Shown: positions 12,425-62,800 of the stretch, one piece after another
Layout: the number at the start of each line of letters is the position of its first letter
Position numbering within the stretch: position 1 is the first letter of the stretch
Source of the DNA: Flectonema sp. DT1601
Taxonomy: Eukaryota > Euglenozoa > Diplonemea > Diplonemida > Diplonemidae
DNA: 64,000 nucleotides
NCBI GenBank assembly: GCA_964019425.1
Contig: OZ025850.1
Span: 496,001-560,000 of the forward strand
Direction: 5' to 3'
Position numbers and translations under genes: made by a program
Notes under the pieces: generated by a model
Seen by the model: only the letters and a program-made list of their open reading frames with translations
What the model was told of the DNA's origin: nothing
The model's database searches: none

Positions 12425-12462
<38 letters not shown>

Positions 12463-25715: not shown

Positions 25716-25933
25716 TTGATTGTTGTACAGAAAACCTTCTCAATTGTGATGGTGGTCTTTGTTTTATCACTGAGTGTGTTATCTAAATTTTTTTTTTTTA
25801 TATTGTATCAGGTATCACCATCATCTATGTGTGCAGTTCACAGCTTATGAATGAGGATAGTGTTTGATTTCGTTTGTCTGTTTAAAAAAAAACAACAACA
25901 ATCACTTTTTTACGGTTCTCTCAGTTGATTAAA

Positions 25934-34356: not shown

Positions 34357-34524
34357 CTTGACAAACGAACACCGTCAACTTCAAATTCTAAAAATGACTC
34401 ACATCATAGTAAAGTTCTGGTGAAGCCGACTACTGTAACAGCACCGACTATCTCTCAAACTGAAAAAGAACTGACCCGAAGTTTATTACTGCTGGCAGGC
34501 GACGTTGAACGCAACCCTGGACCT
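34354..34524 (+). promoter_or_regulatory. In-frame UGA junction followed by a 2A ribosome-skipping site
   Basis: ORF1 ends at UGA 34354-34356. The same frame stays open through 21 codons to the 2A motif GDVERNPGP (34498-34524), which satisfies the D-V/I-E-x-N-P-G-P consensus. If some ribosomes read through, the 2A would still separate an extended ORF1 product from the enzyme polypeptide. Confidence 0.75.
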
Positions 34525-37500
34525 GAAAATTCGTTACTCTCAGTGTTGAGCTGGAACTGTAGATCGATAAGTCAGAAGGGGTCTTATATTCAAAGACTCC
34601 TTTCTCACTACTCGCCGGATGTACTGTGCTTACAGGAAACCTGGTCGAAGGAACACATTTCGCACCCTGGCTATTATACATATAGGAAGGACAGAAATAC
34701 AAAAGGTGGTGGCATTATAATAATGGCAAAGAGATGCTTCTCACAAGGAATCAGTGATGAAGAATTGTTTTCGAGAACAAGCGGTATCGAAGCTATGATG
34801 CTGAATGTTGGTGGTGTCAATGTTATTAACGTTTACGCTCCCCCTGGGTGTATCATTAGAGAAGATGATCTTCCGATCACAACGAAGTCTATTATTGCGG
34901 GCGACTTCAACGCACACAACCTCGTCTGGTCTACCAGGACAACCAAATCTGGTAAAGAATTATTTAATTGGGCGGATCGCAATGACGTTCTCGTAGCAAA
35001 CAGACCTGGTCAAATAACTCGGCCCAAACACGACATTCCTGGCGGTGGTACCTCACCTGACGTTATATTCTTTAAAGGATCAATTGTATTAGAAGAATTT
35101 TCAATCATAAATGAAGACAGTAAACATAACTCGGATCATCGACCTCTACTCGCTATCTTCGACACAATGGCTCACCTCTCTCAAGCAACAGTTGGAGCAA
35201 GGAAACGAACTGTCTGGGATTTCAAATCTACAAACTGGAGTGCTTTCAGACAGCAACTTGATAGAAGAATTGATAGGGCTAAGTTCTCGGATGATGCCAC
35301 TGGTAATGTTGGATTATTAAATAACATAATACATGAAGTAGCTGCGAGGAACGTGCGGAGGAGAATCTTATTTAAGGGCAAGCGCCGACGTAAGTGGAAG
35401 ACCTCTTCACCTGAATCTATAAAATCAAAAGGTAGTCACCTGAAAGACCAACTGAGGAAGGGGAACAACTTTAACTTCGCCTTCAAGAAGATTAAAGAAC
35501 TCCAACAGGACGCTGGTAAGGACATCAGCGTATCAAATATATCTGAGAACGATTTACCTGCAGCATTTCTGGACCTCTTTGTGGCCGATGGGGATGCTGC
35601 TAAACTCGAAGCCCCTTCATTGAAGAAAGAAGACTTGGAATTGGACATCTGTTGTGACTTCACAGATACCGAGATATCAGCAGCAATTAAAAACCTGAAG
35701 CCTCGCAAAGCAGCAGGCCCTGACGGTATTCACAACGAAATGCTTAAGAACTTATCTCAGAAGGCAGTTGACTGTTTATTAAAGGTGATCAATTCTTCGT
35801 GGAGATCCTCCAATGTTCCATATCTTTGGAAACAGGGGTTAATCAAACCGATGTTCAAGTCGGGCAAACCGCGGAACGATATTAAAAGCTACAGACCAAT
35901 CACACTCACTTCGGTTGTTGGCAAACTGGCTGAGAGGTTGGTGTACGACAGGCTCATGCATTGGCTTACCGAAAACTCAGCACTCAGTCCGATTCAAGCT
36001 GGCTTCAGACGGGGCAGAAATACCTGCGAACAAATCACAATTCTGGTGGACGCCATGGTAAACAACCACACGAAGGGGAGGAGGTCAGTCTTCTTGTCAT
36101 TCGATTTCACAGCAGCCTTCGATAGGATTAACCATCGAATTTTACTTTCAAAACTACAAAGAATGGGCATCCCAACCTTCATCGTTCGATGGATAACGGA
36201 CTTTCTAACCAATAGGAAGGTCAGAGTTGATGCAAATGGACATTTCAGTAAGTTTCGTACGCTGTCAAAAGGAGTGCCTCAAGGATCAATCTTAGGCCCA
36301 CTACTCTATTTAATATATGTTGACGATCTGTGTAAGATTCTCTCACAAGAGAAGGAAACGACTTTGACCGCACTGTATGCAGACGACACCGCTTGTGCAG
36401 TATTTGGCTCGACCATGGACGAAGCAATCTCAAACGCTCAACGAATACTTGACATCGTTGACAAGTGGTGCCGTGATAATGACATGGCACTTTCAGTCTC
36501 CAAGACTTGCGCTCTGAAAATGGATATTCAATCGAAAGAAGTAACCCTGACTGATACTAGCGACCGCGAACTCTTATTCTCAAAATCACTGGAAGTACGT
36601 TCGTTAGATATTGACTATTTTGATCTAGACAGCGTGATCAACACGACGACGACAAGGCCCACTTTACTGAGTGGTGAAACGATCCTCGAAGTAGAGGGGA
36701 AACCCATCAGGACTCAACAAGAATTAGAAGATTTACTGATGTTGAACATCCACGACGAGATGAATGTCAAAGCGAAAATTAAAATTGCCTTCCTACTGCC
36801 GATCACGGACTCAGTGAAATATCTGGGTGTTTACATTGATAACAGGCTCAGGTTTGATAAACAGTTAGAGAAAATACACGACGAACTGAAGAAAGGGATC
36901 TCCCTTCTGCAGTGCCTCCAGCCATATGAATTGGACTACAAGACCCTAAAGATGGTTAAAAACTTGTACGTGACAGCGAGGATTTCCTATGCACTGGACA
37001 GCTTTGGTTGGTTGCTCAACCAGCATAAAACGGATGCTATCGACTTCGAGATGAGAAAAATAGCGAGACTCGTAACAGGATGCAGCAGATGTACTCCGAG
37101 GGAGTTGCTCCTTTGGGAAGCCGACATCTTACCGTTTAAAAGACAAATCGAAAAGCAGACTAAAATTGCCTATTTCAGGTACAAAGCCATGACCTGGGTG
37201 CCGGACACCAACTCACTCGCATCGCCTCGAAGCTTCTGGGGTGGCCTCATTCCCCGTTCTGAAGGTCAACTAGAAAGTGTGGGGATCGTTCAACCTGACT
37301 CTATCAAACCTTGGATTGCTTCGGACAATGTTCAAATCAGCAACAGCTGCGGTTTTACAAAATCCCCTGATCCCGCAGTGGACAGGGAGAAATTCCTTAC
37401 CTACAACGCGACACTTCCTCCGGTGGACATGGTGATCAACTGTGACGGTTCATACTCTTCGAATGCGTCAGGCGCGGCTCTCATTGCTAGGTCACGAGAC

Positions 37501-38337
37501 GGAAAGAAACGTGCTCATGCGACCAGATTAGTGCGTGCGGATTGCAGCTACAGAACTGAGCAACATGCCTTGAAAAATGCGGCAAACTACTTAAACTGGA
37601 AGGTACAGAAAGACGGGCTAACTAAGTCAGTCAGAATCTATACCGACTCAAAATCATTGTTGGACGAGTTGAAGGGTGGCAGGTGTAAACAGAGAAACAC
37701 CAGATCCCTCGGCATCCTCGAGAACCTACGGAACTGCGGTATGAAAGTACATCTTCAATTCATCCCTTCTCATATGGGGATAGAAGCACACGACGAAGTT
37801 GATGAACTTGCTAAGAAATCGGCTCACAACAGATACCTCCCTCAAATCCCAATCCGAGGATCCTTCTTCTATCACAAATCCCGAGTGAGGAGGGGGATCA
37901 CGAAGGACATTTGGAACAGAATTGGTTACACTTGCTATAAAAACACCGTCAAAGGTGCCGCGATAAAATATCCTCCCGACATGAAAAGGAGCGATGAAAT
38001 CAGAATTGCGAATTTTAGAACGGGGTGTCATCCACTGATGCAAAACTGGCGGAAAGCCATCAAATGTCCATTCTGCCATAGCGCTCCATCCAACCAACTC
38101 CACCTACTCGTAGGCTGTCCATCACAGAAACTCGATGCAGCCAGATATGAAATCCTTGGCTTTTCTACATTGACAGGCAAATGGGACCGATCAAGTGATC
38201 TAATCCTCATCAACGGCATTCCTGCCAGTCTTGGCTCAATCTTTGCCACCAGCTGGCTTCCTTCAGTAGCGATGTTGATCAGGTGGATGGAACAAGCATC
38301 CAACCTGAGACTTTGGAATTGTGTAGGTGACACGTAG
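34420..38337 (+). CDS. LINE 1 ORF2: EEP endonuclease, reverse transcriptase, RNase H, CCHC
   Basis: The open frame reaches back to the ORF1 stop and lacks an early ATG (34420 is GTG), so translation probably depends on read-through or re-initiation. Near residue 20-35 is the 2A sequence LLLLAGDVERNPGP, predicted to release a peptide between G and P (34519-34522). The EEP endonuclease follows (LSWNCRS, LQETW, AGDFNAHN, SDHR). RT motifs are AAGPDGI, YRPITLTS, DFTAAFDRINH, GVPQGSILGP and catalytic YADD. The RNase H has D (NCDGSY), E (TEQHA), D (YTDSKS) and a late HMG/D segment. A C-terminal knuckle CPFC-x7-H-x4-C closes the protein. All catalytic residues are present. Confidence 0.92.
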   Translation: MKPTTVTAPTISQTEKELTRSLLLLAGDVERNPGPENSLLSVLSWNCRSISQKGSYIQRLLSHYSPDVLCLQETWSKEHISHPGYYTYRKDRNTKGGGIIIMAKRCFSQGISDEELFSRTSGIEAMMLNVGGVNVINVYAPPGCIIREDDLPITTKSIIAGDFNAHNLVWSTRTTKSGKELFNWADRNDVLVANRPGQITRPKHDIPGGGTSPDVIFFKGSIVLEEFSIINEDSKHNSDHRPLLAIFDTMAHLSQATVGARKRTVWDFKSTNWSAFRQQLDRRIDRAKFSDDATGNVGLLNNIIHEVAARNVRRRILFKGKRRRKWKTSSPESIKSKGSHLKDQLRKGNNFNFAFKKIKELQQDAGKDISVSNISENDLPAAFLDLFVADGDAAKLEAPSLKKEDLELDICCDFTDTEISAAIKNLKPRKAAGPDGIHNEMLKNLSQKAVDCLLKVINSSWRSSNVPYLWKQGLIKPMFKSGKPRNDIKSYRPITLTSVVGKLAERLVYDRLMHWLTENSALSPIQAGFRRGRNTCEQITILVDAMVNNHTKGRRSVFLSFDFTAAFDRINHRILLSKLQRMGIPTFIVRWITDFLTNRKVRVDANGHFSKFRTLSKGVPQGSILGPLLYLIYVDDLCKILSQEKETTLTALYADDTACAVFGSTMDEAISNAQRILDIVDKWCRDNDMALSVSKTCALKMDIQSKEVTLTDTSDRELLFSKSLEVRSLDIDYFDLDSVINTTTTRPTLLSGETILEVEGKPIRTQQELEDLLMLNIHDEMNVKAKIKIAFLLPITDSVKYLGVYIDNRLRFDKQLEKIHDELKKGISLLQCLQPYELDYKTLKMVKNLYVTARISYALDSFGWLLNQHKTDAIDFEMRKIARLVTGCSRCTPRELLLWEADILPFKRQIEKQTKIAYFRYKAMTWVPDTNSLASPRSFWGGLIPRSEGQLESVGIVQPDSIKPWIASDNVQISNSCGFTKSPDPAVDREKFLTYNATLPPVDMVINCDGSYSSNASGAALIARSRDGKKRAHATRLVRADCSYRTEQHALKNAANYLNWKVQKDGLTKSVRIYTDSKSLLDELKGGRCKQRNTRSLGILENLRNCGMKVHLQFIPSHMGIEAHDEVDELAKKSAHNRYLPQIPIRGSFFYHKSRVRRGITKDIWNRIGYTCYKNTVKGAAIKYPPDMKRSDEIRIANFRTGCHPLMQNWRKAIKCPFCHSAPSNQLHLLVGCPSQKLDAARYEILGFSTLTGKWDRSSDLILINGIPASLGSIFATSWLPSVAMLIRWMEQASNLRLWNCVGDT

Positions 38338-39138: not shown

Positions 39139-39173
39139 TCACATCCCGGTCGTGGTGCACACAAAAAAAACCG

Positions 39174-40835
39174 ACGGAGGAGGCTGAAAAAGCGGTGAAG
39201 GAGGGCTCGACCTCAGTGACGGAAGCCGTGATGAAGGTTTTCACAGAGGGGGCAAAGAACTGCCTGGGACACGGGACACAGACGGGTCCCTTCACGGTGC
39301 GGTGGGAGGGAAGACAACTGCGTCTGGAACCCCAGTACACAGAAGAGGGGACGGGATCGTCAGGCGGCCGAGAGTCGGTGGAAGGAGAAGACGCGAGGGT
39401 AGAGGGCCGAGACGAGCAGAGCCCGGTCCCAACCCCGAAGGGGGCCGTGCAAAGGGTAGAGGCGGGAGTCCTGGAGTTGAGCTCGGAAGGGTCGGAGGGA
39501 GATGACGATAGATCATCCTCCCCAGCGACAGGGCAGGACGAAGGGAACGGTTCCATGTCGGGAGGCTCCTTGGGGAGTCCAGGGACGTCGGACATGGAAG
39601 CAGAAGAACAGACGGACGAAAGGGACCAGTCAGTAGACCCGTCGGCAGCAGAGACCTCAGGCGAAAACCATCACCTGGCCGAGGACCTGCAAGCCGAGAA
39701 GGGGGACGAGCTGGACGAGACGTCCCACCACTCAGGAGAGCCACCGTCGTCAGACGGCATGGACGGAGTGGAGGGGTTGGAGGACCTGGAAGACTCACAG
39801 TCGGAGATGGAAGTCGACGGAGAAAATGTGACGGAAGGGTCAGTAGTCCAGTACGTCGAGGAGACGTCAGAGGACGTGGTCCAGGTGGCAGAGTCAGACA
39901 CAGAGGAGGAGGGATCGTCAGACTCCCAAATGACCATGACGGTCGATGAACAGGAATGGGAAGAGGGAGCGGCGCCCGAGGGGAACGCAGGTCAGATGGC
40001 CTGGATGCTGGGACTACACCCAGAAGGGGGGAACGCGGAAACACGACGGGAGGGCCAATCGGAGCCCCTTTCAAAGCTGGTGAACTCAGGCGAAACAAAA
40101 CCAATGGCCGAGAGATCCAGTTTGGGGGCGAAGATGGGACCACGCGCAGTGGGTAGTGACGGGAGCGGGGAAGACGCAGAGAGATCGCCGGGCACGGTGT
40201 CGACACCGAGCACGAGAGGGAGGACGAAGTACAGAAAGGGAATGGAGGAGGAGAGGGAGGAGTGTGTGTCGCCGAAGACAAACACGGGAAGGGGACGCAC
40301 GAGAGGCCGGAAGGCAAAGACGGGGGCAAAGGGGGCCGGAAAGGAGGACCCAAGTCCGCAGGTGTTGCAGGCGGAAATGGGAGAGTCCACCCCGAGCTCA
40401 GGTGAACGGCAGGCGAGGAGGAGGTACAGGAAGGGAGAAGAGAGGGAGAGGATAGAGGTTCTCTCCCCAGACCCGAGCAGGAAAGCGAAGAGGAAGAGAC
40501 GCAAGCAGAAGGAACCGGAGCCAGTGGAGGGCACCACGAGGGAACAGGCGCCGCGGAGTTACAACAGGAAACCCACACTGCGTCGGGTAGGTAAGGGAGA
40601 CACACCCGACACAATGGGGTACGCACACGGGCCCCCGGGCTCCCTGACCTCGTTCACGGACGCGGGCGTACGCCCGGAGCCGGCGGAGCGAGACGGACAA
40701 GGTGTGGCAGGAGTAGAGTTGGTCACAAGGTCGTCGTCACAGAGTGAGAGAAGCACCCAAGGAGAGATGAGGGAGAGAGAAGGGGATCCAACACGAAGGG
40801 TCCTGGACTTCTCGTCGAAAGGGGGAAGGTGCTAG
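39174..40835 (+). pseudogene. C-terminal remnant of the retroelement ORF
   Basis: The open frame equals residues of about 2288-2840 of the complete ORF: the acidic, Ser/Glu-rich tail followed by basic RKGEERER and KRKRRKQKE clusters. It lacks every enzymatic domain and is an ordinary 5'-truncation product of target-primed reverse transcription. Confidence 0.88.
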
Positions 40836-41010
40836 GGACTCCACGAAGGAGGTCTCAAGAGTCGAGGAAAAGACAGAGCCAAGACCCCAGAGCCAACCCA
40901 AAACACATGGTAGAGGACGAAGGAGAACAAGAGCGGGAGCGAGGTTAGAAACGTGACCAAAGCCCCCGCGAAGCAGGAGACACAACCTGCAACCAGACCC
41001 CCCCAAAAAA

Positions 41011-41370
41011 CATGTTAAAAGAAAAATGAAAAAAAAAAAAAAAAGAAGAGTGAAAAGGAAGACAGAGTTGTATGTAAACTGTATGTAAATGTAAGAAGAA
41101 AGAAAAAACACGCAGGAAGTGGGAGTGCAACCATCAGCGCAAACACAACCACAAATATTGTTTTTTTTTTTTTTTTCCTTTTTCTTTTCTTCGCTTCGGC
41201 GACAGATATGGTAGGACCTAGAAAACCGGCCCAAAACTTGTGTTGCAGTTTATCTTTTTAGCGCACACTCATGTAACATAAGGATCGCTGGTTCCGAGGG
41301 TTTGCTCTCCTGCCATACTTGCCTCTCACCTCCCTCAATAAAAAAATAAAAAAAAAAAAAAAAAAAAAAA
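41011..41370 (+). mobile_element. Insertion in the truncated copy's 3'UTR, partly tRNA-like
   Basis: This block is present only in the upstream copy, placed in an A-run that in the complete copy reads straight into CCCCGGTCAACG. It ends in a long A tail. Near 41261-41318 it reads TAGCGCACACTCATG, then AAGGATCGCTGGTTCCGAGG, a degraded resemblance to the anticodon and T arms of elongator tRNA-Met. A SINE is plausible; the family is unknown. Confidence 0.5.
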
Positions 41371-41918
41371 CCCCGGTCAACGAGGCAAACTCGGACCAAA
41401 ACATGCTTTTCACCCCCCCCAGGAAGCACCGACCAGTGGAGCCAAAGGCCACACACATATTATAAAAATCAAAGGCCGCCCCCCAACCCAAGAAAAGGAT
41501 GAAAAACTTTCAAGCGAAAAAACTTGACGTCCGTACGCCCCAGAGATCAAAGGACGGACGACTCACACCCCCTTCTTTCGCCCCATTTTATTTACTGGTA
41601 CAGCGACAAATGTAAAGCTGGGTAGACGACGAATTATTTTTTGTGCACAGAGACAAGGGATCCATGAGAACAAAGGATCAAGAGAAGAAGTGCACATTCC
41701 CCATCCCAAACCCAGAAACATGAGAACTCATTAAATTGAAGGGTCATGTCTTTTCAAGTCGAAAAATGCTTAAATGCTAAAGAAGACTGTCGTCCCCAGC
41801 TCGCGGGTTTTCCCTGTCACTGTATGTCGAGACAACGATCAGAGTCAGTAGAAAGATTGTACTAATTAACAGTATAATGAAAAAGGACAAAGAGAGTAGT
41901 TTCCATTTTATCTTCCCG

Positions 41919-41970
<52 letters not shown>

Positions 41971-41974
<4 letters not shown>

Positions 41975-42084
41975 ACTCCACACACACGTACGGGCTAACA
42001 AGGAGAAGAGCAGGTAAGTCGATTGTCTTTTTTCGGGTTCCATACACAAATCATCCACAGCGAAGGGAACGGAAAAGGAAGAGT

Positions 42085-42120
<36 letters not shown>

Positions 42121-45100
42121 AGAATGGAGAAAACAATGTTACTGTGTGGGTATGTGCTGCTGTGGGCACTACTAAGTGGAACGAGGGCGCAACAGACGTC
42201 CGGAGTGGGTAAGCAGAGGTTAGCCCCAGTGCCAGGCGGATGGCACACCCCTCTTTTCACAACGCTGGACAAAGGCCCACTGTTTTCATCGAGCATCAGC
42301 CGACGCGTAACACGCCCGATCCCCCCGCACCCATTTGTAACCCCCAACAGCTCAAACAGCCCTAACAATACGGCAAGCGGACGCGCTTCCCAACATGGAC
42401 GAGAGGGGGTGTGGGTCCCGCGGAGGGGAACGGAAACGGCCGGGAACCGGGTGAGGCGAGACCACCCAAAGCCACCTCCAGACAAGGGAGGAAGGGTGCT
42501 CCTGAAGAGGGCGTCCCCGATAGTGGCGTCCAAGGCGGCAAGGCGGCTGGAAAGGAGGAGGAGGAAGCTGCTGAAGGAACGGCAGGAGAGGTGGGAGCGG
42601 TGGGCGGGAGAGTTGGAGAAGTTCCACGCCAGGCGAGAGAGGTTCCGCGCGGATACAGAGAGGCCAAGGAAGAACAGGGCGGAGACACCGAAGAAGCGAC
42701 GGGCAGGGCCCGAAAGGGACCGGGCAAAGCCAGGAGGGCACAAGGCGGAGCCCAGACCATGGTATGCGAGGCCGTCAGACCTGGCAGGAGGAGGGCAAAG
42801 CAAGGAGAGGACGAAGTGCCCGGTGGTGGGGTGCAGCGTCTGGGTGAGGGGTGACCTAGAGTACCACTTCAAACAACACCTGAAGGGAGTGGTACCGGGG
42901 GAGGTAACGGCCCAGATGGCTTCCGACAGACTCGGAAAGCAGATCTGCAAGGCCTGCGGGGAGCTGAGTACCGGATTGGTGCACCAGACAGTGAGGTGTC
43001 GGGAGATGTTGGACCTCAAAGGACGGCTGGGGGTAGCGACGGGACCCGCGCCGGAACTGGCAAGCCTGAAGTGCGAGGGAGCAAAAGTATTTCGGGTGAT
43101 TGGGGATGGGAATTGCCTGTTCAGGAGTGTGTGCCAACTCCTAGAGACGCCAGAGGGGTGGAAGGGCAGACATGGAGAGCTCCGCAGGAGAACGGCAGGG
43201 TACCTGACCAAGAACAGGGAAAGGTTCGAGGTCTTCTTCCAGGACGCGGACGCATTCGGAGTATATGCGAGGGCGTTAGAAGAAGATGGATGCTGGGGCG
43301 ATGCGTTGGCCCTACAGGTCATGGCAGAGGACCTACAGTGCCGCTTCGTCGTCGTGGTGAGGACGGAAACGCTGGTGGTGGAAGGGCCATCGGACCCGAA
43401 GCAGACGCTGGTCTTGACCCTGCAAAACGGGTGTCACTACGACCCAGTGGAGGCATCCGAGGACTGCGTCGCGCGGCTGCTACAGAGCGCCCGGAGGTTG
43501 GAGTTAGTGTCGCCAGGCCCGCTGTCGCAAGCAGCAGGAGGCGAGCCGGCAGTGCTGCAGACAGCCTCCCGACAGGCCCAGCTGCACGAGTGCCCCCAAG
43601 CGGAGTGCCCGAAACACAAGGGAGGCTTCGAGGAGTGGGCGGAGCTCCTAAGACACGTGGACGAGCACGCATTCAGTGGCAACCCGCTGACGCATGGACA
43701 GTTGGCGAGGCTAGGCCTGCGGGAATGTCCGGTGTGCTGTGGGATCATCGGGCAGGACCAGCCGATGCATCCGGGGTGCAGTGAGAAACTGCAGAAGGTC
43801 CAACTGGGGGACGTGTACACGGCGTTCCGGAAGCGGGTGCTGGAGAGCCAGAGCTTCCCCTCTTTGGAGGAAATAGCCAGCAGGAGGAGGCCGATAGCGA
43901 AGAAGCTGCCGGTGCCCCTGTTGCACCATTTGGGGCGAGCACTCAAGCTGGCGCTTGACCTAGTCGTGGAGCGGAACGATGAGTGGGCATGGAAGCTGCT
44001 CTTGATGCTCCCGACTTGTACACTGCGGAGGATACGGAGGGGGGGTAGGAGGTTGTCGACCAGCAATCTGACAGGGGCTGTCGACGACCTGCAAGCATGG
44101 ATTCGGGGGGATTTTGAAGGACTGTGGAAAGCGGCGGCCCCCCGCAAGGCGACGGGAAGGCCAGCAGTGAAAGAGGCGGGGCAAAAAGGAAGGAACGACA
44201 GGGCCACGTCGCTAGCGAGGGAGGGTTGCCTGTCACAGGCGATCTCGGCCCTAGACGCGCCGCCGCCAGCAGAACGAACCGAGAAGGTGCTGGAGCAGAT
44301 GCGCACCCTACACCCGAGGGCGAGCGGACCCCCATCGGCCACGGCAGGGCAGGAGGTGCAGATAGCAGAGGTGGAGCTGCTAGCATGCCTACGCTCCTTC
44401 CACAGGGGGTCGAGTGGAGGGCCTTCGGGCCTCGCGCCGCAACACCTGAAGGACGTGGTGGAGCGGGGTGAGGTGCCGGGGCTGGTAGCCTCGATCACGG
44501 AGGTGGTGAGGATTCTGGCGAACGGGAGGGCGCCGCGGGAAGTAGCGCCGCTGCTGGCGGGGGCGAACCTGACGGCGCTGGAGAAAGAAGGGAAGCCGGG
44601 GGAGCACCGGCCAGTCGCGGTGGGGGAAACATGGAGGCGGCTGGTGGCGAAGATCCTGTGCGGGGCATACAGGTCCCAGGCGAGGAGCTCGTTGCTAGAA
44701 GTGAGACAGCTGGGAGTAGCGGTGTCGGGGGGAGTGGAGGCGGCGGTGCACACCCTGCATGAGTTCCGCGCGGAGCACGCGCTCTCGTCACAGAAAGTGT
44801 TCGTGAAGATAGACTTCTCGAACGCCTTCAACTGCGTGAAGAGGGGGGCGTTCCTGGATTCGACGAGGGATACCCTGCTGGAGAGCTGGGTCAGCTGGTG
44901 TTACGGAGCGCCGACGTGGTTGCTGTTTGGGGACGAGAGGCTGAGCTCGGAGGAGGGCGCGCAGCAGGGGGATCCGTTGGGTCCCTTGCTGTTCTCGTTG
45001 GCAATCAAGCCGGCGCTGCAGAAGGTGTTAGAGGCGAAGCCGGAGTTGGCGTGCTTCTACCTGGACGATGGGCTGGTGGCGGGCACCCTGGAACAGGTGG

Positions 45101-48100
45101 ACAAGGCCCTCCAAATCCTGCAGAAGGAGACGGCGGAGCTGGGGCTGACGCTGAGGCCGGACAAGTGCCAGACGCACGTGCTCGACTCAGCCCAGAACAC
45201 CCTGCCCTTGGGGTGGGGGTTGGAGGGGATGAGACCCCCACTGTACAACGGGGACTTCCTGGGGGCACCGTTCGGGACGGATGAACACTGCCAGGAGTTC
45301 GTCGACAGGAAGGTGGCGCAGCTGGAGAAGAAAGCGGAGCTGCTAGCTGACCTGCAGGACCGGCAGGTGGCCATGGTGCTCCTAAGGCAATGCATGGGCT
45401 TCTGCAAGGTGACCCACCTGATGCGATGCTGCACGCATGGGAAAATGGACACCTCGATGCGGAAGGTGGACGAGCTGATGAGGTCCACGGCGAGCCGAGT
45501 GTTGGGCCTGACACTGGAGGGGCCAAAGTGGATGCAAGCACAACTGCCGACCCGGATGGGGGGATTGGGGCTGCGGTCATGTGCAGAGCACAGGGGAGCA
45601 GCACTATTGGGATCCCTGGAATTAGTCCAAGGGGTGAGCAAGTCACTGTGGGAGGGGTTCAAGGGGGTGCTGATGCCAGCACTGAAGAAGGGGTTGAACC
45701 TCGCCCTCCCGGAGGAGCTAAGGATAGAAGAAGACGGGCCGGGGCCGAACCCCCAGAGGCTGTCCTCGGCGAAACTGGACCAGGTCAAGAGAGACTGCCT
45801 GCTGGCGGGGGCGAATGACCCGCGCGATAAAGGGAGGCTGCTCTCCCTGCGCATGGATAAGGCGAGCGCATGGCTGCAACAAGCAGATGAAGAGTGCGCG
45901 ATGGACCCAGAGACGTTCAGGATCGCATGTGGGATGCGATTGGGCGCAGCGCTGTTCGCGGAAGGGGCAGTATGCAGGATATGCTCAGGCCCACAGGATA
46001 GGCAGGGATACCATGCCTCAATCTGTATCAAAAACGGCCACGTGCACCAGCGACACGAGAGGGTGAAGGAGGAGTTCATCTCCATCTTTAAGCAGGCGGG
46101 ATTGCCGCTGCTGAGAGAACCCAGCCACCTACTGGGACCCAACAAGCAGAGACCGGGGGACTGGTACTGCCAAGAGGGGCTGAGGGAGGGGAGAGGCAGA
46201 GCCTTCGACATCACAGTGGTAAACCCGGGGAAAATTAAATTGTATAAAACCCCGGGGCAAGCCGCGAGAGAAGCAGAGTCCCTGAAAGGGAACAAGTACG
46301 CGGAGCAGTGCACGAAACACGGGATTAATTTCTCGACAATTGCGCTGGAAGCGTACGGAGGGATGGGACGGGAAGCAGTGGGGACCCTGAAGAAGTTGGT
46401 GCAGATCTGCGCAACGAACTCGACGGTGCCACACCGGGAGATCGCGGGGGAGATGGCGAGGAGGATCTCGACATCGGTGGTAGTGGCGACGGCGGAAGCA
46501 CTGAGAGCGAGGGAGGCGTCGGTGGCGATGGACTCAGTGAACCCATTGCCAAGGACGAAACCGCCGCCCGAGATGACGGAGAAGCCGACATCACAAGAGA
46601 GAGAACCAAGACCGAGAGCGGAAACGGAAGAGATCCAGCAGCCGGAAGTAATGCGACAGTCGGCAGGACCGCCCCCGACGATGAGGGGTTTGCCGAACAT
46701 CGGGAACTCCTGCTACCTCAACGCGTCCGTACAGTGCCTGCTGAAGGGCACGGCACTGACACAAGTGCTGACGGGGAAGGAGGAAGTGGGGATGTCGGGC
46801 CTCCTGAGTGGAGTGGTCAAAGGGAGTGGGGAGTGCCTGGAGAAGCTGTCCGAGATGTTCGACCCGCTACAAGACAGGCGGCAGGGGGAGGTAGTAGGAA
46901 CCCTGACGTCCATAGTAGACGCCCTGTTGGAGGAGAAGAAAGAGGTGTGCGAACCGTTGTTCTCGGCAGTACAGCTGAAACAGCTGGTCTGCACGGGATG
47001 TGCGGACGCCTCCGGATCAACGGATGAGTTGACGCTGATCCCACTGTGTGGCCGTACACCACAAGTGAGGCTTCAGCCGACGAAGGAGAGAGTCGAGCGG
47101 TCCTGCGAGAAGCTGTGCGGCAGCAATGAGGCCACGCTGGAAGAGAGTTTCGCCTCGCTCCCAAGCTCCTTGATCTTCCAGAGAGACAAGCAGGACACGC
47201 AAGGGTCCTTGGGATGGGAAGAGCGCTTCCAGGTGCAGGTCGGGGAGAGGGTGATGACGTACCAGCAAACGGGAGCGATCGCACACCTCGGGAGTGACAA
47301 CGCGGGGCATTACGTGTCATACACGTGGGACGGAGTAGGCTGGCAGAAGCAAGACGACAAGGCAATAAGCCAAGTGTCGACAGAGGAGATCCACGGGACG
47401 AAACCAGTAGTAGTGGTCTACTCGAGGGTGGAGGGATCGACCCAAGAGGACGTCGGGGTGCCGGTGAGATGGATTCCGGTGGCGAACAAGGACCGGATGG
47501 AGGTACGCGAGGCACCGCCGTCGGAGGAGGACACCGCGGGGTACACGTCCAGGGAAGAGGCGGAGTGTGTCCTCCGGACGCGAGTAGTAGGGGGGCAGAC
47601 GCAGCGCAAGCTGCTCTTACTGGTATCGAGCGTCTGGAACGCGGAGATGGAGAAGCTGGGGGCGGCAGCATGCCTGATACACATGGGAACGCTCGACAGG
47701 AGGTTCACGTGGTCGGGCTGCCTACCGACATGGGACGAAGCGACTGCGGAGTACGTGGCAGCGCTGCTAGGGCTCAACGCGATCAGGGAGAGATCGCAAC
47801 TGCTGGGGGGTGAGACACAGATCGAGGTGGTCACACCGCAGCAGGGGTGGGGAGCCGAGCAGCAGGAGGCGCTGAAGTTGGTAGCGCTCCCGTCGGTGAT
47901 AGAACACCAGGTGACGGAAAGCTCACGAGGGGTGGAGAACCTGGCCCTCTGGGAAGCGGAATCGGCGGCATGGGACGAGCCGGTGGAACTCTCGGAGGAC
48001 GGGCTCGACTACTTGGTGATCGAGCTGGAGATGAATCTGGGGCTGTCCCAATTGAGGGGAAAGGCGGCGGAACCGGATGAATCCCAGTCGCTCCCAGGAG

Positions 48101-51100
48101 GGTCGACGGCATCAGGCGAAGACAGACCACGAGCCGAAGCGCCAGCCCAGGTGGAAGCGCAGACGACGGAAGCACAAGGAGCGGAAGCAGTAGGGCTGAG
48201 AGACGAGCCAGCACAGGAAGTGGGACAACCCGAGGAAAAAGAGCCCCCATCCCCCGACCCCCCGTCGAAGGAGGAGAAGTTGTATGCGGTGGCGGTGGGA
48301 TGGAAACCGGGAGTGTATGCATCGTGGGAGGAGGCGAAGGCACAGACGGAAGGGTGCCCGAATGCGACACACCAGAGTTTCTCCTCCAGGAAGGAGGCGG
48401 ACAGGTTCGTAGAGAGGTGGCAGCCGGAGACCAGGGAACCGACCCGGGCCACGGAGGGAGTCAGCCCACGCAAGTGGTACGCAGTGGCGAGGGGCAGGGC
48501 GGTAGGCCTGTTCCAATGCTGGAACGAGGCGAACTCGATGGTGTCAGGCTACGCGGCGGCGAGACACAAGAGTTTCGCAAGCAAGGGGGAGGCGGAGGGA
48601 TACCTCCGAACCCACCTGCTGGGGGAGGTGGTTGGCGAAGTAGGGACGAGGTACACCTTGGTGTACGCATGCGAGGAAGACCCGGTAACGGGCCGTCTGG
48701 GGGCGGCGGCGAGCTGGTTGGACACACACCGTTTCGAGGTGTTGGGCACATGGTCAGCTGGCCTGCCAGCGGGAGACACACACTGGGGGCGATACTTCGC
48801 AGCCCTGGTGGGGCTGGTAGCGGCCAAGGCGTGTGGAGGCCTCGTCCCAGCGGAGGCATCCCTGCTGCTGCGAGGAAGCACGACACACTGGTCGACGGAC
48901 CAGAGAGAGGTGCTGGAGGAGGCGGAGTTGATGGGGAGGCGTACGACGCTGGTGGAGATGCCAGAGAGGATGAGAACACACGCGACGGAGGAGGCTGAAA
49001 AAGCGGCGAAGGAGGGCTCGACCTCAGTGACGGAAGCCGTGATGAAGGTTTTCACAGAGGGGGCAAAGAACTGCCTGGGACACGGGACACAGACGGGTCC
49101 CTTCACGGTGCGGTGGGAGGGAAGACAACTGCGTCTGGAACCCCAGTACACAGAAGAGGGGACGGGATCGTCAGGCGGCCGAGAGTCGGTGGAAGGAGAA
49201 GACGCGAGGGTAGAGGGCCGAGACGAGCAGAGCCCGGTCCCAACCCCGAAGGGGGCCGTGCAAAGGGTAGAGGCGGGAGTCCTGGAGTTGAGCTCGGAAG
49301 GGTCGGAGGGAGATGACGATAGATCATCCTCCCCAGCGACAGGGCAGGACGAAGGGAACGGTTCCATGTCGGGAGGCTCCTTGGGGAGTCCAGGGACGTC
49401 GGACATGGAAGCGGAAGAACAGACAGACGAAAGGGACCAGTCAGTAGACCCGTCGGCAGCAGAGACCTCAGGCGAAAACCATCACCTGGCCGAGGACCTG
49501 CAAGCCGAGAAGGGGGACGAGCTGGACGAGACGTCCCACCACTCAGGAGAGCCACCGTCGTCAGACGGCATGGACGGAGTGGAGGGGTTGGAGGACCTGG
49601 AAGACTCACAGTCGGAGATGGAAGTCGACGGAGAAAATGTGACGGAAGGGTCAGTAGTCCAGTACGTCGAGGAGACGTCAGAGGACGTGGTCCAGGTGGC
49701 AGAGTCGGACACAGAGGAGGAGGGATCGTCAGACTCCCAAATGACCATGACGGTCGATGAACAGGAATGGGAAGAGGGAGCGGCGCCCGAGGGGAACGCA
49801 GGTCAGATGGCCTGGATGCTGGGACTACACCCAGAAGGGGGGAACGCGGAAACACGACGGGAGGGCCAATCGGAGCCCCTTTCAAAGCTGGTGAACTCAG
49901 GCGAAACAAAACCAATGGCCGAGAGATCCAGTTTGGGGGCGAAGATGGGACCACGCGCAGTGGGTAGTGACGGGAGCGGGGAAGACGCAGAGAGATCGCC
50001 GGGCACGGTGTCGACACCGAGCACGAGAGGGAGGACGAAGTACAGAAAGGGAATGGAGGAGGAGAGGGAGGAGTGTGTGTCGCCGAAGACAAATACGGGA
50101 AGGGGACGCACGAGAGGCCGGAAGGCAAAGACGGGGGCAAAGGGGGCCGGAAAGGAGGACCCAAGTCCGCAGGTGTTGCAGGCGGAAATGGGAGAGTCCA
50201 CCCCGAGCTCAGGTGAACGGCAGGCGAGGAGGAGGTACAGGAAGGGAGAAGAGAGGGAGAGGATAGAGGTTCTCTCCCCAGACCCGAGCAGGAAAGCGAA
50301 GAGGAAGAGACGCAAGCAGAAGGAACCGGAGCCAGTGGAGGGCACCACGAGGGAACAGGCGCCGCGGAGTTACAACAGGAAACCCACACTGCGTCGGGTA
50401 GGTAAGGGAGACACACCCGACACAATGGGGTACGCACACGGGCCCCCGGGCTCCCTGACCTCGTTCACGGACGCGGGCGTACGCCCGGAGCCGGCGGAAC
50501 GAGATGGACAAGGTGTGGCAGGAGCAGAGTTGGTCACAAGGTCGTCGTCACAGAGTGAGAAAAGCACCCAAGGAGAGATGAGGGAGAGAGAAGGGGATCC
50601 AACGCGAAGGGTCCTGGACTTCTCGTCGAAAGGGGGAAGGCGCTAGGGACTCCACGAAGGAGGTCTCAAGAGTCGAGGAAAAGACAGAGCCAAGACCCCA
50701 GAGCCAACCCAAAACACATGGTAGAGGACGAGGGAGAACAAGAGCGGGAGCGAGGTTAGAAACGTGACCAAAGCCCCTGCGAAGCAGGAGACACAACCTG
50801 CAACCAGACCCCCCCAAAAGAAAAAAAACCCCGGTCAACGAGGCAAACTCGGACCAAAACATGCTTTTCACCCCCCCCAGGAAACACCGACCAGTGGAGC
50901 CAAAGGCCGCACACATATTATAAAAATCAAAGGCCGCCCCCCAACCCAAGAAAAGGATGAAAAACTTTCAAGCGAAAAAACTTGACGTCCGTACGCCCCA
51001 GAGATCAAAGGACGGACGACTCACACCCCCTTCTTTCGCCCCATTTTATTTACTGGTACAGCGACAAATGTAAAGCTGGGTAGACGACGAATTATCTTTT

Positions 51101-51376
51101 GTGCACAGAGACAAGGGATCCATGAGAACAAAGGATCAAGAGAAGAAGGGCACATTCCCCATCCCAAACCCAGAAACATGAGAACTCATTAAATTGAAGG
51201 GTCATGTCTTTTCAAGTCGAAAAATGCTTAAATGCTGAAGAAGACTGTCGTCCCCAGCTCGCGGGTTTTCCCTGTCGCTGTATGTCGAGACAACGATCAG
51301 AGTCAGTAGAAAGATTGTACAAATTTGTTGTATAATGAGAAAGGACAAAGAAAGTAGTTTCCATTTTATCTTCCCG

Positions 51377-51407
<31 letters not shown>
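41971..51407 (+). mobile_element. Complete 9.4 kb non-LTR retroelement with OTU, RT, RLE, USP and RNase H-like domains
   Basis: The element lies between the poly-A of the truncated copy (ending 41970) and its own poly-A (51378-51407), and the two copies share the same 3' junction TTCCCG before the A tail. It has a leader of about 150 bases with its own A-run, one ORF of 2840 codons and 760 bases of 3'UTR. The body is conspicuously GC-rich against the AT-rich host. The RT plus PD-(D/E)XK restriction-like endonuclease places it with early-branching R2/NeSL/CRE/Dualen-type LINEs. OTU proteases are known in Dualen and some other LINEs and Ulp-type proteases in NeSL/Utopia. A USP domain in such an element is new to me. 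The uninterrupted ORF and near-identical neighbour suggest recent activity. Confidence 0.88.
42124..50646 (+). CDS. Retroelement polyprotein: OTU protease, RT, RLE endonuclease, USP protease, RNase H-like and hybrid-binding domains
   Basis: The order along 2840 residues is as follows. A signal-peptide-like N-terminus (1-23) is followed by a C2H2 finger (about 232-254). The OTU protease (about 322-445) has D328-G-N-C331 and H438. Zinc fingers lie near 490-513 and 535-550. The reverse transcriptase (about 750-1010) has D897 in KIDFSNAF, GAQQGDPLGP and Y979-L-D981-D982. A CCHC knuckle at C1284 precedes the restriction-like endonuclease (about 1335-1440) with RPGD1346 and FD1362ITVV. The USP (about 1520-1765) has Cys box GNSC1530YLN and His box GH1729YVSY. 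An RNase H-like fold (1828-1960), two RNase H1-type hybrid-binding domains (2053-2100 and 2117-2163, each YAVA...G...W.EA) and a second RNase H-like fold (2175-2290) follow. The tail is long, acidic then basic. Both RNase H-like folds seem to lack catalytic aspartates. The proteases may strip ubiquitin from the complex or process host targets; that is inference. Confidence 0.88.
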   Translation: MEKTMLLCGYVLLWALLSGTRAQQTSGVGKQRLAPVPGGWHTPLFTTLDKGPLFSSSISRRVTRPIPPHPFVTPNSSNSPNNTASGRASQHGREGVWVPRRGTETAGNRVRRDHPKPPPDKGGRVLLKRASPIVASKAARRLERRRRKLLKERQERWERWAGELEKFHARRERFRADTERPRKNRAETPKKRRAGPERDRAKPGGHKAEPRPWYARPSDLAGGGQSKERTKCPVVGCSVWVRGDLEYHFKQHLKGVVPGEVTAQMASDRLGKQICKACGELSTGLVHQTVRCREMLDLKGRLGVATGPAPELASLKCEGAKVFRVIGDGNCLFRSVCQLLETPEGWKGRHGELRRRTAGYLTKNRERFEVFFQDADAFGVYARALEEDGCWGDALALQVMAEDLQCRFVVVVRTETLVVEGPSDPKQTLVLTLQNGCHYDPVEASEDCVARLLQSARRLELVSPGPLSQAAGGEPAVLQTASRQAQLHECPQAECPKHKGGFEEWAELLRHVDEHAFSGNPLTHGQLARLGLRECPVCCGIIGQDQPMHPGCSEKLQKVQLGDVYTAFRKRVLESQSFPSLEEIASRRRPIAKKLPVPLLHHLGRALKLALDLVVERNDEWAWKLLLMLPTCTLRRIRRGGRRLSTSNLTGAVDDLQAWIRGDFEGLWKAAAPRKATGRPAVKEAGQKGRNDRATSLAREGCLSQAISALDAPPPAERTEKVLEQMRTLHPRASGPPSATAGQEVQIAEVELLACLRSFHRGSSGGPSGLAPQHLKDVVERGEVPGLVASITEVVRILANGRAPREVAPLLAGANLTALEKEGKPGEHRPVAVGETWRRLVAKILCGAYRSQARSSLLEVRQLGVAVSGGVEAAVHTLHEFRAEHALSSQKVFVKIDFSNAFNCVKRGAFLDSTRDTLLESWVSWCYGAPTWLLFGDERLSSEEGAQQGDPLGPLLFSLAIKPALQKVLEAKPELACFYLDDGLVAGTLEQVDKALQILQKETAELGLTLRPDKCQTHVLDSAQNTLPLGWGLEGMRPPLYNGDFLGAPFGTDEHCQEFVDRKVAQLEKKAELLADLQDRQVAMVLLRQCMGFCKVTHLMRCCTHGKMDTSMRKVDELMRSTASRVLGLTLEGPKWMQAQLPTRMGGLGLRSCAEHRGAALLGSLELVQGVSKSLWEGFKGVLMPALKKGLNLALPEELRIEEDGPGPNPQRLSSAKLDQVKRDCLLAGANDPRDKGRLLSLRMDKASAWLQQADEECAMDPETFRIACGMRLGAALFAEGAVCRICSGPQDRQGYHASICIKNGHVHQRHERVKEEFISIFKQAGLPLLREPSHLLGPNKQRPGDWYCQEGLREGRGRAFDITVVNPGKIKLYKTPGQAAREAESLKGNKYAEQCTKHGINFSTIALEAYGGMGREAVGTLKKLVQICATNSTVPHREIAGEMARRISTSVVVATAEALRAREASVAMDSVNPLPRTKPPPEMTEKPTSQEREPRPRAETEEIQQPEVMRQSAGPPPTMRGLPNIGNSCYLNASVQCLLKGTALTQVLTGKEEVGMSGLLSGVVKGSGECLEKLSEMFDPLQDRRQGEVVGTLTSIVDALLEEKKEVCEPLFSAVQLKQLVCTGCADASGSTDELTLIPLCGRTPQVRLQPTKERVERSCEKLCGSNEATLEESFASLPSSLIFQRDKQDTQGSLGWEERFQVQVGERVMTYQQTGAIAHLGSDNAGHYVSYTWDGVGWQKQDDKAISQVSTEEIHGTKPVVVVYSRVEGSTQEDVGVPVRWIPVANKDRMEVREAPPSEEDTAGYTSREEAECVLRTRVVGGQTQRKLLLLVSSVWNAEMEKLGAAACLIHMGTLDRRFTWSGCLPTWDEATAEYVAALLGLNAIRERSQLLGGETQIEVVTPQQGWGAEQQEALKLVALPSVIEHQVTESSRGVENLALWEAESAAWDEPVELSEDGLDYLVIELEMNLGLSQLRGKAAEPDESQSLPGGSTASGEDRPRAEAPAQVEAQTTEAQGAEAVGLRDEPAQEVGQPEEKEPPSPDPPSKEEKLYAVAVGWKPGVYASWEEAKAQTEGCPNATHQSFSSRKEADRFVERWQPETREPTRATEGVSPRKWYAVARGRAVGLFQCWNEANSMVSGYAAARHKSFASKGEAEGYLRTHLLGEVVGEVGTRYTLVYACEEDPVTGRLGAAASWLDTHRFEVLGTWSAGLPAGDTHWGRYFAALVGLVAAKACGGLVPAEASLLLRGSTTHWSTDQREVLEEAELMGRRTTLVEMPERMRTHATEEAEKAAKEGSTSVTEAVMKVFTEGAKNCLGHGTQTGPFTVRWEGRQLRLEPQYTEEGTGSSGGRESVEGEDARVEGRDEQSPVPTPKGAVQRVEAGVLELSSEGSEGDDDRSSSPATGQDEGNGSMSGGSLGSPGTSDMEAEEQTDERDQSVDPSAAETSGENHHLAEDLQAEKGDELDETSHHSGEPPSSDGMDGVEGLEDLEDSQSEMEVDGENVTEGSVVQYVEETSEDVVQVAESDTEEEGSSDSQMTMTVDEQEWEEGAAPEGNAGQMAWMLGLHPEGGNAETRREGQSEPLSKLVNSGETKPMAERSSLGAKMGPRAVGSDGSGEDAERSPGTVSTPSTRGRTKYRKGMEEEREECVSPKTNTGRGRTRGRKAKTGAKGAGKEDPSPQVLQAEMGESTPSSGERQARRRYRKGEERERIEVLSPDPSRKAKRKRRKQKEPEPVEGTTREQAPRSYNRKPTLRRVGKGDTPDTMGYAHGPPGSLTSFTDAGVRPEPAERDGQGVAGAELVTRSSSQSEKSTQGEMREREGDPTRRVLDFSSKGGRR

Positions 51408-59832: not shown

Positions 59833-62800
59833 ATGAGAGCTTATAAAACATCGCGTTCACATCTCGATGCTATTATCGAAGCTCACGACCCTGATATTAT
59901 CCACCTCCAGGAAACTTGGTTGAAAGCAGACGTAACCGATGATCAACTTGGTATTACAGGATATTCATTATTCCGCCGTGATAGGTGCGACTCTTCTAAA
60001 ATGGGAGGCGGTGGACTTCTTTCTTATTTCAAAAAGTCTCTTGGTACGGTCCAATTAGAAGTAGGTAAGCATCCATCCGCTGTTGAGGTTATCCATTGCA
60101 GTTTCTCGACTTCCATGGGCATATTTAGAACTTTTAATATTTACATCCCACCGAAGGTGTGCCAGCTGCCCTCTTCTATGTTTTTGGGGGATCTAGCAGT
60201 AGGTGATTTCAATGCACATCATGAATCTTGGTCGCGTCGAATTCCTAAGGGGTGCGTCTCTTCAGGAAGGATAGTAAATGAATGGATTATAAATAATGGA
60301 TTAGCTATTGAACCTCTGGCTCCTTCTATTCCTGCTCATGGTACAACGCCCGATTTATTATTGCACTCGCCGCAGTTCAAGTGTCTGCGTTCGCTGCAGA
60401 TTGATGCTGGGCAAGTTAATTCCGATCATACCCCAATTGTTGCAGATTTTAATGTGACTCCCCTCACTGTACCGGTAGCTATTCCGGCTCATCGTATATG
60501 GTTCAAAAACAGTTTTACGGAATCTCATTGGTCCTCCTTCTCCGCACAACTTGACTCCCATTGTTTTAGACTTAAAAGGATACGATCTTTAAATAAACTC
60601 TGTGACAGTTTTGTTCGAACAATAGAATCTGTTGCGATTGATACTCTTCCAAATAAGTGGCACAAAGAATCTTTCCGGGTTAAACGCAAACATCGCCATT
60701 TGGACCCTGAACTTATTCTAATCGACGGTTGTAAGAAGGGCTTTAGCTGGACTTATAAGAAATTACGAGAACTGAAAGGAGAGTCAACGGTTATTGAGAC
60801 CCCGCAGGTGAACGTCGGAGCGCTCAAACGTCGCTTTTTCCCTGATTCTTCTGACAATCGTCCCTTGCTTATTCCGCATACTTCAAAGGTGGATTTTTCA
60901 GAACCCAGTTGCTCTCCTTTTACAATGGCAGAGGCCCAAGCAGTTTTTAATTCTTTGAAAAAGTCTGACGGCTCCGGTCCGGATTCTATAAGTAACAACA
61001 TGATTTATCATTTTGGAGATATGGCTAAGGAAGTTCTCCTACGTATTGCAAACTGGTCTTTCCAGAGAGGAACCTTCCCGAAATGTTTGAAAGTAGCACA
61101 TGTTCTCCCTATTCTAAAAGGTAGCAAAAAGGACCCGACTGATGCCGCCTCCTATCGTCCTATCTCATTGACCTCAGTAGTTGCTAAATTCATTGAATCC
61201 CTTGTCCATTTTAGATTAGAACATCTGCTGATTTCTAAACTAGACCCTAAACAATCTGGGTTTGTTCCTGGTAGGTCAGCGGAGGAAAATATAGCCGTTA
61301 TGATCGAAGCTGCAGCTGAAGTTAAAAACAATTATGAGAAATGTGCAACGATGATTTTCTTCGATATCTCGGGTGCGTTTGATAATGTGGATCACCATAT
61401 TCTAATGAGTAGGCTTACAACACTCATCCCAGTCCCTTATGTAAGGTGGATTGGTAATTTCCTCTCGGACCGAGTAGCGCATCTTCTCCACGGCCATAAC
61501 CGTACAGGCCCGATTTCTTGCAAAAAGGGGGTCCCACAAGGCAGTATTCTAGGACCGCTCTTATTCCGTGTGTACGTGAACTCCCTACCGGATGCCATCA
61601 CAGCCGATTTAAAGCTGTTATACGCGGATGACTTGACAGTGTTTGTTAGTGGCTCTTCGGTTAGTGATTTGGAATCCAAGGCGAACAATGCCATAGGACA
61701 AGTGGAGAACTGGCTCGCTGATTCAGCAATGTCCCTCTCTCTGAACAAGACTGAATTTTTGGCATTCGGAGGACGTTTCTCAGACAGAAGTATTTGTAGA
61801 CTTCCAAGACTTTATTTTCCCTCTACGGTGGACGATATCGACCTTCCCCGTGGCTCTGCCGACTTCATCAGGATACATCAGGATGATGGTGCCGCAGCTC
61901 TGCTCAATTTCAAAACAGGACCGGTATACCCACTTGCAATTAATGGTAACTACCTTGAGACCCGCTCTCAACTTTCACAAAGGACGCCAAAGGGTTCTTT
62001 CGTTCTAAAGGCTGCAATCCCTCTAAGGCGTGTGTCGCAGTCGCGGTATCTAGGCATAATTATCGACGATGATTTATCTTTTACATCGCAGTTAGCTCAC
62101 CTATCAAATACCCTAAAGCGGGGAATCGGCTTGATTTCGATAGTTTCATCTTTTAAAATCAAAACGGAAGTTCTCCGACAAACAATCTATGGGCTGATCC
62201 TCTCTAGGGCCTATTACGGACTAGCTTCTTATGCACCCTATATCAAGCAGAATTCTTTGAAACTTATTGAGAATACACTTCGTTCACTTCAACTAAGACT
62301 GACGGGATGCTCCAAATCGACCTCCTCAACTGCATTATCGGTAGAATCTAGTATTCCCCCGTTCAAACTACACGTGGCTAAAGTCGTGGCTTTATCCTAC
62401 GAACGTTTCCTGAGGCTCCCAGACGATTGCCCGACTCGGTCGTTGGTTCACCCTGAAAAGTCTAGCTCGTGGAAACTCTACGCAGAACCCCATGCCAAGA
62501 CTTATGTGACCCCTAATGAAAGATCAATGCTCTGCCTACCGCATCACCAGACTCCTTGGGGACCACCCCCGGATGTTATTATCAATTCCTGGGCAGATTT
62601 CCGTAAGTCCATGGACCCATGCAAGAATTTGTTAGCTGCACTTGGAAAAATTAAGACCCTCCCAAAGTCAGTGGCCTCGCTGTATACAGATGCATCCTAC
62701 TTCCAAGATAAAGAAAGTAACTACCATTGTGGTAATGCAGCAGTTTTAATCTTTGGAAAGAGATGCATCAAAGAAATACATCGTTACGACCCATCTCTGA

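Follow-up and report, generated by a model that had tools for sequence, protein, structure and literature searches.

A LINE-like retroelement of the diplonemid Flectonema sp. DT1601 predicted to carry OTU and USP deubiquitinase domains in one open reading frame

Why would one retroelement protein carry two unrelated deubiquitinase folds? The question was raised by a stretch of Flectonema sp. DT1601 DNA (assembly GCA_964019425.1, contig OZ025850.1, positions 496,001 to 560,000, forward strand), 64,000 nucleotides long and hereafter called the window. A sequence-only reading had proposed that the open reading frame (ORF) at 42124..50646 joins an OTU protease, a reverse transcriptase (RT), a restriction-like endonuclease (RLE) and a ubiquitin-specific protease (USP). 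Our analysis indicated that the element is almost certainly a long interspersed element (LINE)-like, non-long-terminal-repeat retrotransposon with an RLE, carrying OTU and USP in one ORF. We assigned the window copy to family A, one of the related families A to E of this genome. Its features, in window coordinates, are as follows.

39172..41971, + strand: older family A copy, 5'-truncated, with a foreign insert at about 41011-41359
41972..51407, + strand: family A element copy, from CCTACTCC after a foreign A-run to the poly(A) end
42124..50646, + strand: single ORF, 2840 amino acids
42817..42879, + strand: zinc-finger-like motif CPVVGC...HFKQH upstream of the OTU (motif only)
43102..43365, + strand: OTU cysteine protease domain (Pfam), D328 at 43105 and C331 at 43114
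43726..43779, + strand: Cys/His cluster CPVCCG...HPGC between OTU and RT (motif only)
44584..45180, + strand: reverse transcriptase RVT_1 (Pfam), FYLDD at 45055 (residue 978)
45973..46473, + strand: RLE, CCHC cluster from 45973, PGD near 46150, conserved D and K
46684..47421, + strand: USP (UCH, peptidase C19), C1530 at 46711, H1729 at 47308, DD1744-1745, Cys pairs
48277..48408, + strand: RNase H1 N-terminal hybrid-binding domain 1 (Cauli_VI, Pfam)
48472..48609, + strand: RNase H1 N-terminal hybrid-binding domain 2 (second Cauli_VI stretch, match to RNase H1 3bsu)
48625..49008, + strand: conserved segment following the hybrid-binding domains
51377..51407, + strand: 3' poly(A) of the window copy

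The ORF was one plus-strand frame of 2840 amino acids with an ATG start (stop-to-stop 41881-50646). Its domain order was OTU, RT, RLE, USP and two RNase H1-type hybrid-binding domains. The Pfam scan of the ORF placed OTU, RVT_1, UCH and Cauli_VI above their own cut-offs. The OTU match covered residues 327-414 (E 1.8e-12, 48.3 bits against a cut-off of 23.3), and the RVT_1 match covered residues 821-1019 (E 7.5e-17). The UCH match covered residues 1521-1766 and the entire profile (E 2.7e-11, 44.0 bits against a cut-off of 23.9, profile positions 1-254 of 254). Cauli_VI matched in two stretches (E 2.5e-27). The sequence-only reading was correct in the range of the ORF, which lies within an element copy spanning about 41972-51407, and in the residues D328, C331, H438, C1530 and H1729, to which we add DD1744-1745. 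Of these, H438 (43435) lay outside the Pfam OTU match, beyond its end. A weak zf-C2H2_4 match, below the cut-off, was found upstream of the OTU in family E. The conserved segment at 48625..49008 had 0 solved relatives at E <= 1; a degenerate RNase H fold was suspected by eye and is unconfirmed.

The RT profile matched R2 proteins best among solved structures (E 1.1e-17), the match spanning the RT only. The RLE gave no Pfam profile match in the ORF scan; its C, C, H, C, PxD, D and K columns were invariant in 7/7 aligned sequences, and we read these motifs (CCHC, PD-D-K) on what we take to be the pattern of R2-type enzymes. No Pfam match to an APE endonuclease (Exo_endo_phos) was obtained in the ORF at E <= 1. 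The 3' end was constant, with CTTCCCG followed by A's in 10/10 fetched 3' ends. The A-runs there were at least 47 long in eight cases (one T-broken), interrupted in one and only A6 in one. The 5' ends were variable, and two kinds of start were seen among the fetched copies. RVT_1 was abundant across the genome in general (150 scored of 759 candidates).

The genome searched comprised 89.5 Mb in 92 contigs. Hand-matching of 67 OTU and 134 UCH matches by contig and frame length gave 29 loci at which a single unbroken frame holds both OTU and USP: 16 in family A (window copy included), 3 in B, 2 in C, 6 in D and 2 in E. The USP segment, used as a query, returned 84 genome matches; 22 of them (window copy included) spanned residues 1-281, were 98-100% identical and had no stop. 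Aligned over 9478 columns, the window copy and a second A copy shared 99.0% identity. By motif and reading, the order OTU, RT, RLE, USP and hybrid-binding domains was the same in this second copy and in one example each of B to E. Pfam matches to RVT_1, UCH and Cauli_VI passed in all three of the B, D and E examples scanned, and OTU passed in B and D only. The RTs of B and C were 96% identical; the two may be subfamilies of one family. Stop-to-stop frames of family D reached 5423 amino acids, and families B-E had long low-complexity linkers from RLE to main USP. Tandem repeats, each about 21 residues long (GEGTAP..YAEAGPGA), opened the family D stretch. Two earlier claims were borne out by these results: that the ORF belongs to a retroelement (RVT_1, R2-like RT, invariant RLE columns and many near-identical copies), and that both deubiquitinase types share one polypeptide (one frame at 29 loci). 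The same order recurs in sister families B-E of this genome.

The OTU profile of the elements matched OTUD3 (3.8e-15) and OTUD5 (3.4e-12) among solved structures. The catalytic Cys and His were present in all five aligned OTUs, one per family A-E. GDGNCLFR occurred in 17/17 family A OTU loci and the HYDPV box in 16/17, the exception being a 313-amino-acid fragment. Codon differences summed over these 17 loci were 84 synonymous to 20 replacement in the OTU and 83 synonymous to 182 replacement in residues 1-300, with the window copy, itself among the 17, as reference and with counts that share ancestry. Between the window copy and the second A copy, the OTU had 6 synonymous differences and 1 replacement difference. 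The ratio of replacement to synonymous substitution rates (dN/dS) for the OTU was 0.11 between B and C. These values argue clearly for purifying selection on the OTU.

The USP profile matched 103 distinct sequences of solved structures at E <= 0.001; the best 60 of 103 were all USP-class, with USP15 (6.7e-25) and USP36 (1.2e-24) among them. In five aligned main USPs, one per family A-E, the Cys, the His and then DD or ND were intact; the window USP shows both the Cys box and the GHY box, and the third catalytic residue is presumably this Asp/Asn. Foldseek with an AlphaFold model of the USP, made from a five-sequence alignment, gave 107 matches at E <= 0.001 (down to 4.1e-10, at a mean predicted local distance difference test (pLDDT) score of 52.5), and the best 50 of 107 were all USP-class, SAGA Ubp8 among them. 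This low-confidence model is consistent with a USP fold and is no proof of it. The window copy and the second A copy differed in the USP at 2 synonymous and 0 replacement sites. Between B and C, dN/dS was 0.35 for the USP (from a domain-wise alignment) and 0.05 for RLE, 0.04 for RT and 0.55 for the post-RLE linker of 84 codons (like the OTU value, from the full-length alignment). As judged from these alignments, the USP retains its catalytic and Cys-pair positions yet diverges fast. Derivation from the host genome's own USP genes was unsupported, as the best BLAST match of each element USP was another element. In this comparison, 12/20 cellular UCH loci were entered, the other 8 being left out where the motif cut did not find both boxes. 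For the family E USP, the match to one cellular USP (7e-12) rivaled that to family A (8e-11).

Families D and E had a second Cys-box segment between RLE and main USP (GFENTRGTCY, GFSNGGGTCY), followed by a later His. The segment is placed as follows.

Family D frame, residues 1883-2115: second USP-like domain
Family E frame, residues 1758-1991: second USP-like domain

The profile of the five main USPs scored 32.0 bits on this domain in E and 18.5 bits in D, against a maximum of 8.9 in 4000 shuffles. Its own two-sequence profile had a USP as best solved match (E 0.0034), and 6/7 matches at E <= 1 were USPs. Pfam gave at most a weak UCH_1 trace in D (0.009, below the cut-off). The domain was 41% identical between D and E and had lost the GHY context (RHAM, KHAV). 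It may be inactive because the GHY box is changed. This domain, the two RNase H1-type domains and the spliced-leader 5' ends described next go beyond the sequence-only reading.

How the copies arise was approached through their ends. A 19-base spliced leader (SL) core, which we take to be euglenozoan, had 733 genome matches at up to one mismatch, and the reversed control pattern had 0. Among the places listed, SL RNA genes lay in tandem arrays with units of 623 bases (C16) and 610 bases (C20); a 5S rRNA gene (Rfam, 98.7 bits) is part of the C16 unit as well. The 5' sides of 11 other family A copies were compared. Nine shared a leader upstream of an internal A-run, one (C22) started at CCTACTCC behind another element's tail, like the window copy, and one started beyond the fetched stretch. 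The window copy is without the leader present in most other fetched family A copies and begins right after the poly(A) of the older copy at 39172..41971. The C6 copy was followed to its end. In this copy, genomic A's and unrelated DNA led straight into a full SL exon, with which the leader opened. That exon continued with TTTTTTCCC, whereas SL genes continue there with GTACAG. Stretches at C2, C30 and C17 had the same SL-to-leader junction. Within the window, the SL sequence had no match with up to 3 mismatches. Because copies open with a mature SL and close with poly(A), we infer that a trans-spliced, polyadenylated mRNA served as template. New copies would be received by A-rich DNA, often another element's tail. 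SL-exon-targeted insertion of the SLACS type was rejected for family A, in which the SL is a retrocopied leader and not the exon of an SL gene.

Two observations were made beside these copies. At C22, nearly the same A-bounded sequence of about 230 bases lay on both sides of the copy (C22:1211313-1212313 and 1221313-1222013), which could reflect either a duplication of great length or a pair of tails from another element. Upstream of a D copy (stretch L083, position 391), an SL was joined to a protein-kinase-like coding sequence (MPKRIGKYELGKTLGAGTFSKV; kinase by eye). This joint suggests a retrocopied host mRNA, and that such machinery may also copy host mRNA.

Relatives were sought with residues 800-1780 as query, the best 7999 candidates by shared words being scored. 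Among the 26 proteins found, one ENA record was near-identical and had UCH and RVT_1; the others were from Diplonema papillatum or unnamed. When the alignments themselves served as search profiles, 4 proteins were retrieved for the USP and 9 for the OTU; these went into the structure alignments. The closest named relatives were SLACS-annotated elements of D. papillatum, among them P0003, which matched across 68% of the query region with 37% identity. Both P0003 and the Diplonema protein P0008 carried, behind their RT/RLE part, an NSCYL box resembling a USP start. Unlike the window element, P0003 had no Pfam deubiquitinase match at E <= 0.5; public gene models may be partial. The USP-like pieces of P0003 and P0008 scored 7.8 and 9.1 bits, and shuffled sequences reached as much as 8.3; with scores at the edge of noise, the signs of a USP in Diplonema elements are suggestive only. 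According to the Diplonema genome paper, some 2500 gene models are of retroelement types, SLACS among them, and the word 'ubiquitin' gave no match in its main text (PMC10161547). SLACS/CRE elements insert inside the SL RNA gene exon, and the family A element does not.

In known transposons, fusions of a deubiquitinase or Ulp1 are single. NeSL and Utopia are RLE-type LINEs like the window element, and nematode NeSL and one Utopia carry an N-terminal Ulp1-like protease, as the sequence-only reading had stated for some LINEs; theirs is a single Ulp1-type protease, whereas the window element has OTU and USP (PMC4640811, in part). No Pfam match to Ulp1 was found in the window ORF at E <= 1. This is compatible with kinship of its RT to Utopia, because not every Utopia has Ulp1 (PMC4640811, in part). 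Ginger1 transposases have OTU or Ulp1 fused, never both in one Ginger1; OTU also occurs in some Helitrons, and peptidase C19 in a Trichomonas transposase. Unlike the window element, all three are DNA transposons (PMC2836005, in part). Among unnamed ENA proteins, P0021 had an OTU before the RT like the window element (Pfam 3.5e-11), P0005 had an OTU-like stretch after the RT, read by eye, and neither had a USP box in the motif scan. The OTU profile also matched full viral RNA polymerase L proteins of 3945-3990 amino acids at about residues 30-174. These have an N-terminal OTU on a giant polymerase; they belong to RNA viruses, have no USP and are an analogy only. In PMC11943222 (in part), an OTU gene and non-LTR elements receive no more than a passing mention. 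Two groups of OTU matches were set aside as not being the window element. One was a Helitron-like ORF (2593 amino acids in stretch L087; Helitron by eye) with an OTU-like C-terminus. In the other, an ORF (L086 243-1940) had a YIDD RT-like box with an OTU-like domain behind it and may represent a further class of OTU-bearing retroelement.

What the two domains might do was considered in a model of the element's cycle. The element RNA would be trans-spliced and polyadenylated, and the element protein would bind its own RNA in cis. The RLE would nick A-rich DNA, where the poly(A) would pair with the nick and prime reverse transcription, and the hybrid-binding domains would hold the RNA:DNA hybrid. 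OTU and USP, active in cis, would strip host-added ubiquitin from the element's giant protein and ribonucleoprotein (RNP). Deubiquitination before or at the nick would spare the protein from the proteasome or from removal off the target, and the pairing of two unrelated folds would let the element handle different ubiquitin linkages or stages. In mammals, human L1 ORF2p is ubiquitinated by TRIM41 and then degraded (PMC10716122, in part), and mouse L1 ORF1p is degraded via a TEX19.1/UBR2 route (PMC5570191, in part). Because ubiquitin attack on L1 proteins is documented there, self-deubiquitination is the most economical reading. An RLE LINE with OTU and USP as in-cis self-protection is, as a whole, our best explanation and probably correct; the protective role taken by itself, deubiquitination of its own RNP in cis, is quite possible and short of probable. 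Escape from turnover or editing of chromatin may be the purpose, as the sequence-only reading proposed; its interpretation as a whole was partly supported, through the retroelement identity, the two folds recognizable by profile, their shared polypeptide and the recurring order.

Editing of chromatin, the second half of that proposal, is the main competitor to self-protection. The deubiquitinases might act at the nick on ubiquitinated chromatin or repair proteins (e.g. histone ubiquitin), and in this way open the target or steer repair toward joining of the cDNA. The USP profile aligned end to end with SAGA Ubp8 (4fip_A, profile 9-265, E 4.1e-19), the top Foldseek row was a Ubp8 chain, and the best solved match of the second domain of D and E was 6tbm_Q, which we take to be a SAGA subunit. 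However, USP15 and USP36 outscored Ubp8 in the USP profile search, a substrate is not given by fold likeness, and the nearest OTU relatives, OTUD3 and OTUD5, do not by themselves indicate chromatin. In favor of this reading, the Ginger authors suggested a role in repair during transposition (PMC2836005, in part). We hold action at the target site to be somewhat unlikely. Polyprotein processing, in which the cysteine proteases cut a long product into parts like viral papain-like proteases, would suit the very long frames (2840 amino acids, and up to 5423 in D), the low-complexity linkers ahead of the USP in B-E and the presence of two cysteine proteases within one protein. Both domains, however, resemble ubiquitin-specific families and not processing proteases, and such cutting seems quite unlikely.

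It is improbable that the domains are now non-catalytic, as ubiquitin-binding or passenger modules. Fast USP divergence and the second USP-like domain of D and E without the GHY context speak for this, but Cys, His and DD/ND are intact in the five aligned main USPs, the OTU is under purifying selection, and 22/22 family A matches to USP residues 1-281 have no stops. An artefact, with two adjacent genes or chance read-through in place of one element protein, is hardly credible. Public protein P0002 (2040 amino acids) does start mid-frame and omits part of the C-terminus. OTU and USP, however, share a frame at 29 loci of families A-E, and both halves are copied together with the same ends, on which the separate-genes and chance readings were rejected. 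At the sequence level, many copies keep the 5' and 3' halves in one frame, where the sequence-only reading had allowed that they might prove to be separate genes.

Several observations weigh against an active, self-protecting element with both domains. The USP model was poor (mean pLDDT 52.5, predicted template modeling score 0.49), and for the best 50 of 107 Foldseek matches, template modeling scores were 0.22-0.33 and root-mean-square deviations 12-17 A. Of the two folds claimed by the sequence-only reading, both OTU (48.3 bits) and USP (44.0 bits) were recognizable by profile, whereas the structure model of the USP was weak. USP identity was 74% for B-C, 27-39% for A-B, A-D, B-D and D-E, and 19% for A-E, and the USP dN/dS (0.35) was nearer that of the linker (0.55) than that of the RT (0.04). 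The family E OTU reached 27.7 bits in the genome scan and 21.2 bits in the frame scan (cut-off 23.3). No target-site duplication was established at the copies. The N-terminus of the ORF (window 42124-42190) held a signal-peptide-like stretch, MEKTMLLCGYVLLWALLSGTRA, which seems odd for a nuclear enzyme; family B was likewise hydrophobic near its N-terminus. A downstream start is possible because residues 1-300 are poorly constrained.

Elsewhere in the window, two further LINE ORFs of the APE type were found at 34420-38337 and 59833-63840, the second with an RNase H. Host genes on the same strand, at 6046-18253 and 25925-27481, encoded an M24 peptidase, a TBC RabGAP, a histidine phosphatase, a DnaJC11-like protein, a CLC channel and a 2OG-Fe dioxygenase.

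Fusion of a deubiquitinase or related protease to a transposition protein is a known kind of arrangement because Ginger1, Helitron, Trichomonas and NeSL/Utopia provide precedents (PMC2836005, PMC4640811, both in part). Among the open-access matches listed, with subscription papers and Repbase outside the scope, there was no report of a LINE with USP or of OTU and USP in one retroelement protein. To our knowledge, USP in a LINE and the pairing of OTU with USP are a new variant. More tentatively, families A-E may represent a euglenozoan LINE lineage with a modular anti-ubiquitin arsenal (OTU, main USP, and a second USP-type domain in D and E) in an arms race against the host. The arsenal would have been kept through deep divergence, with the USP part changing fast, as a mirror image of TRIM41/UBR2-type restriction. 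C331 and C1530 provide two single-residue test points on whether transposable element proteins must escape ubiquitination, and the diverged families A-E are a natural set for finding what each deubiquitinase cleaves. An element that joins its RT and endonuclease in cis to two deubiquitinase folds of unrelated type would be the counterpart, on the transposon's side, of host ubiquitin attack on LINEs.

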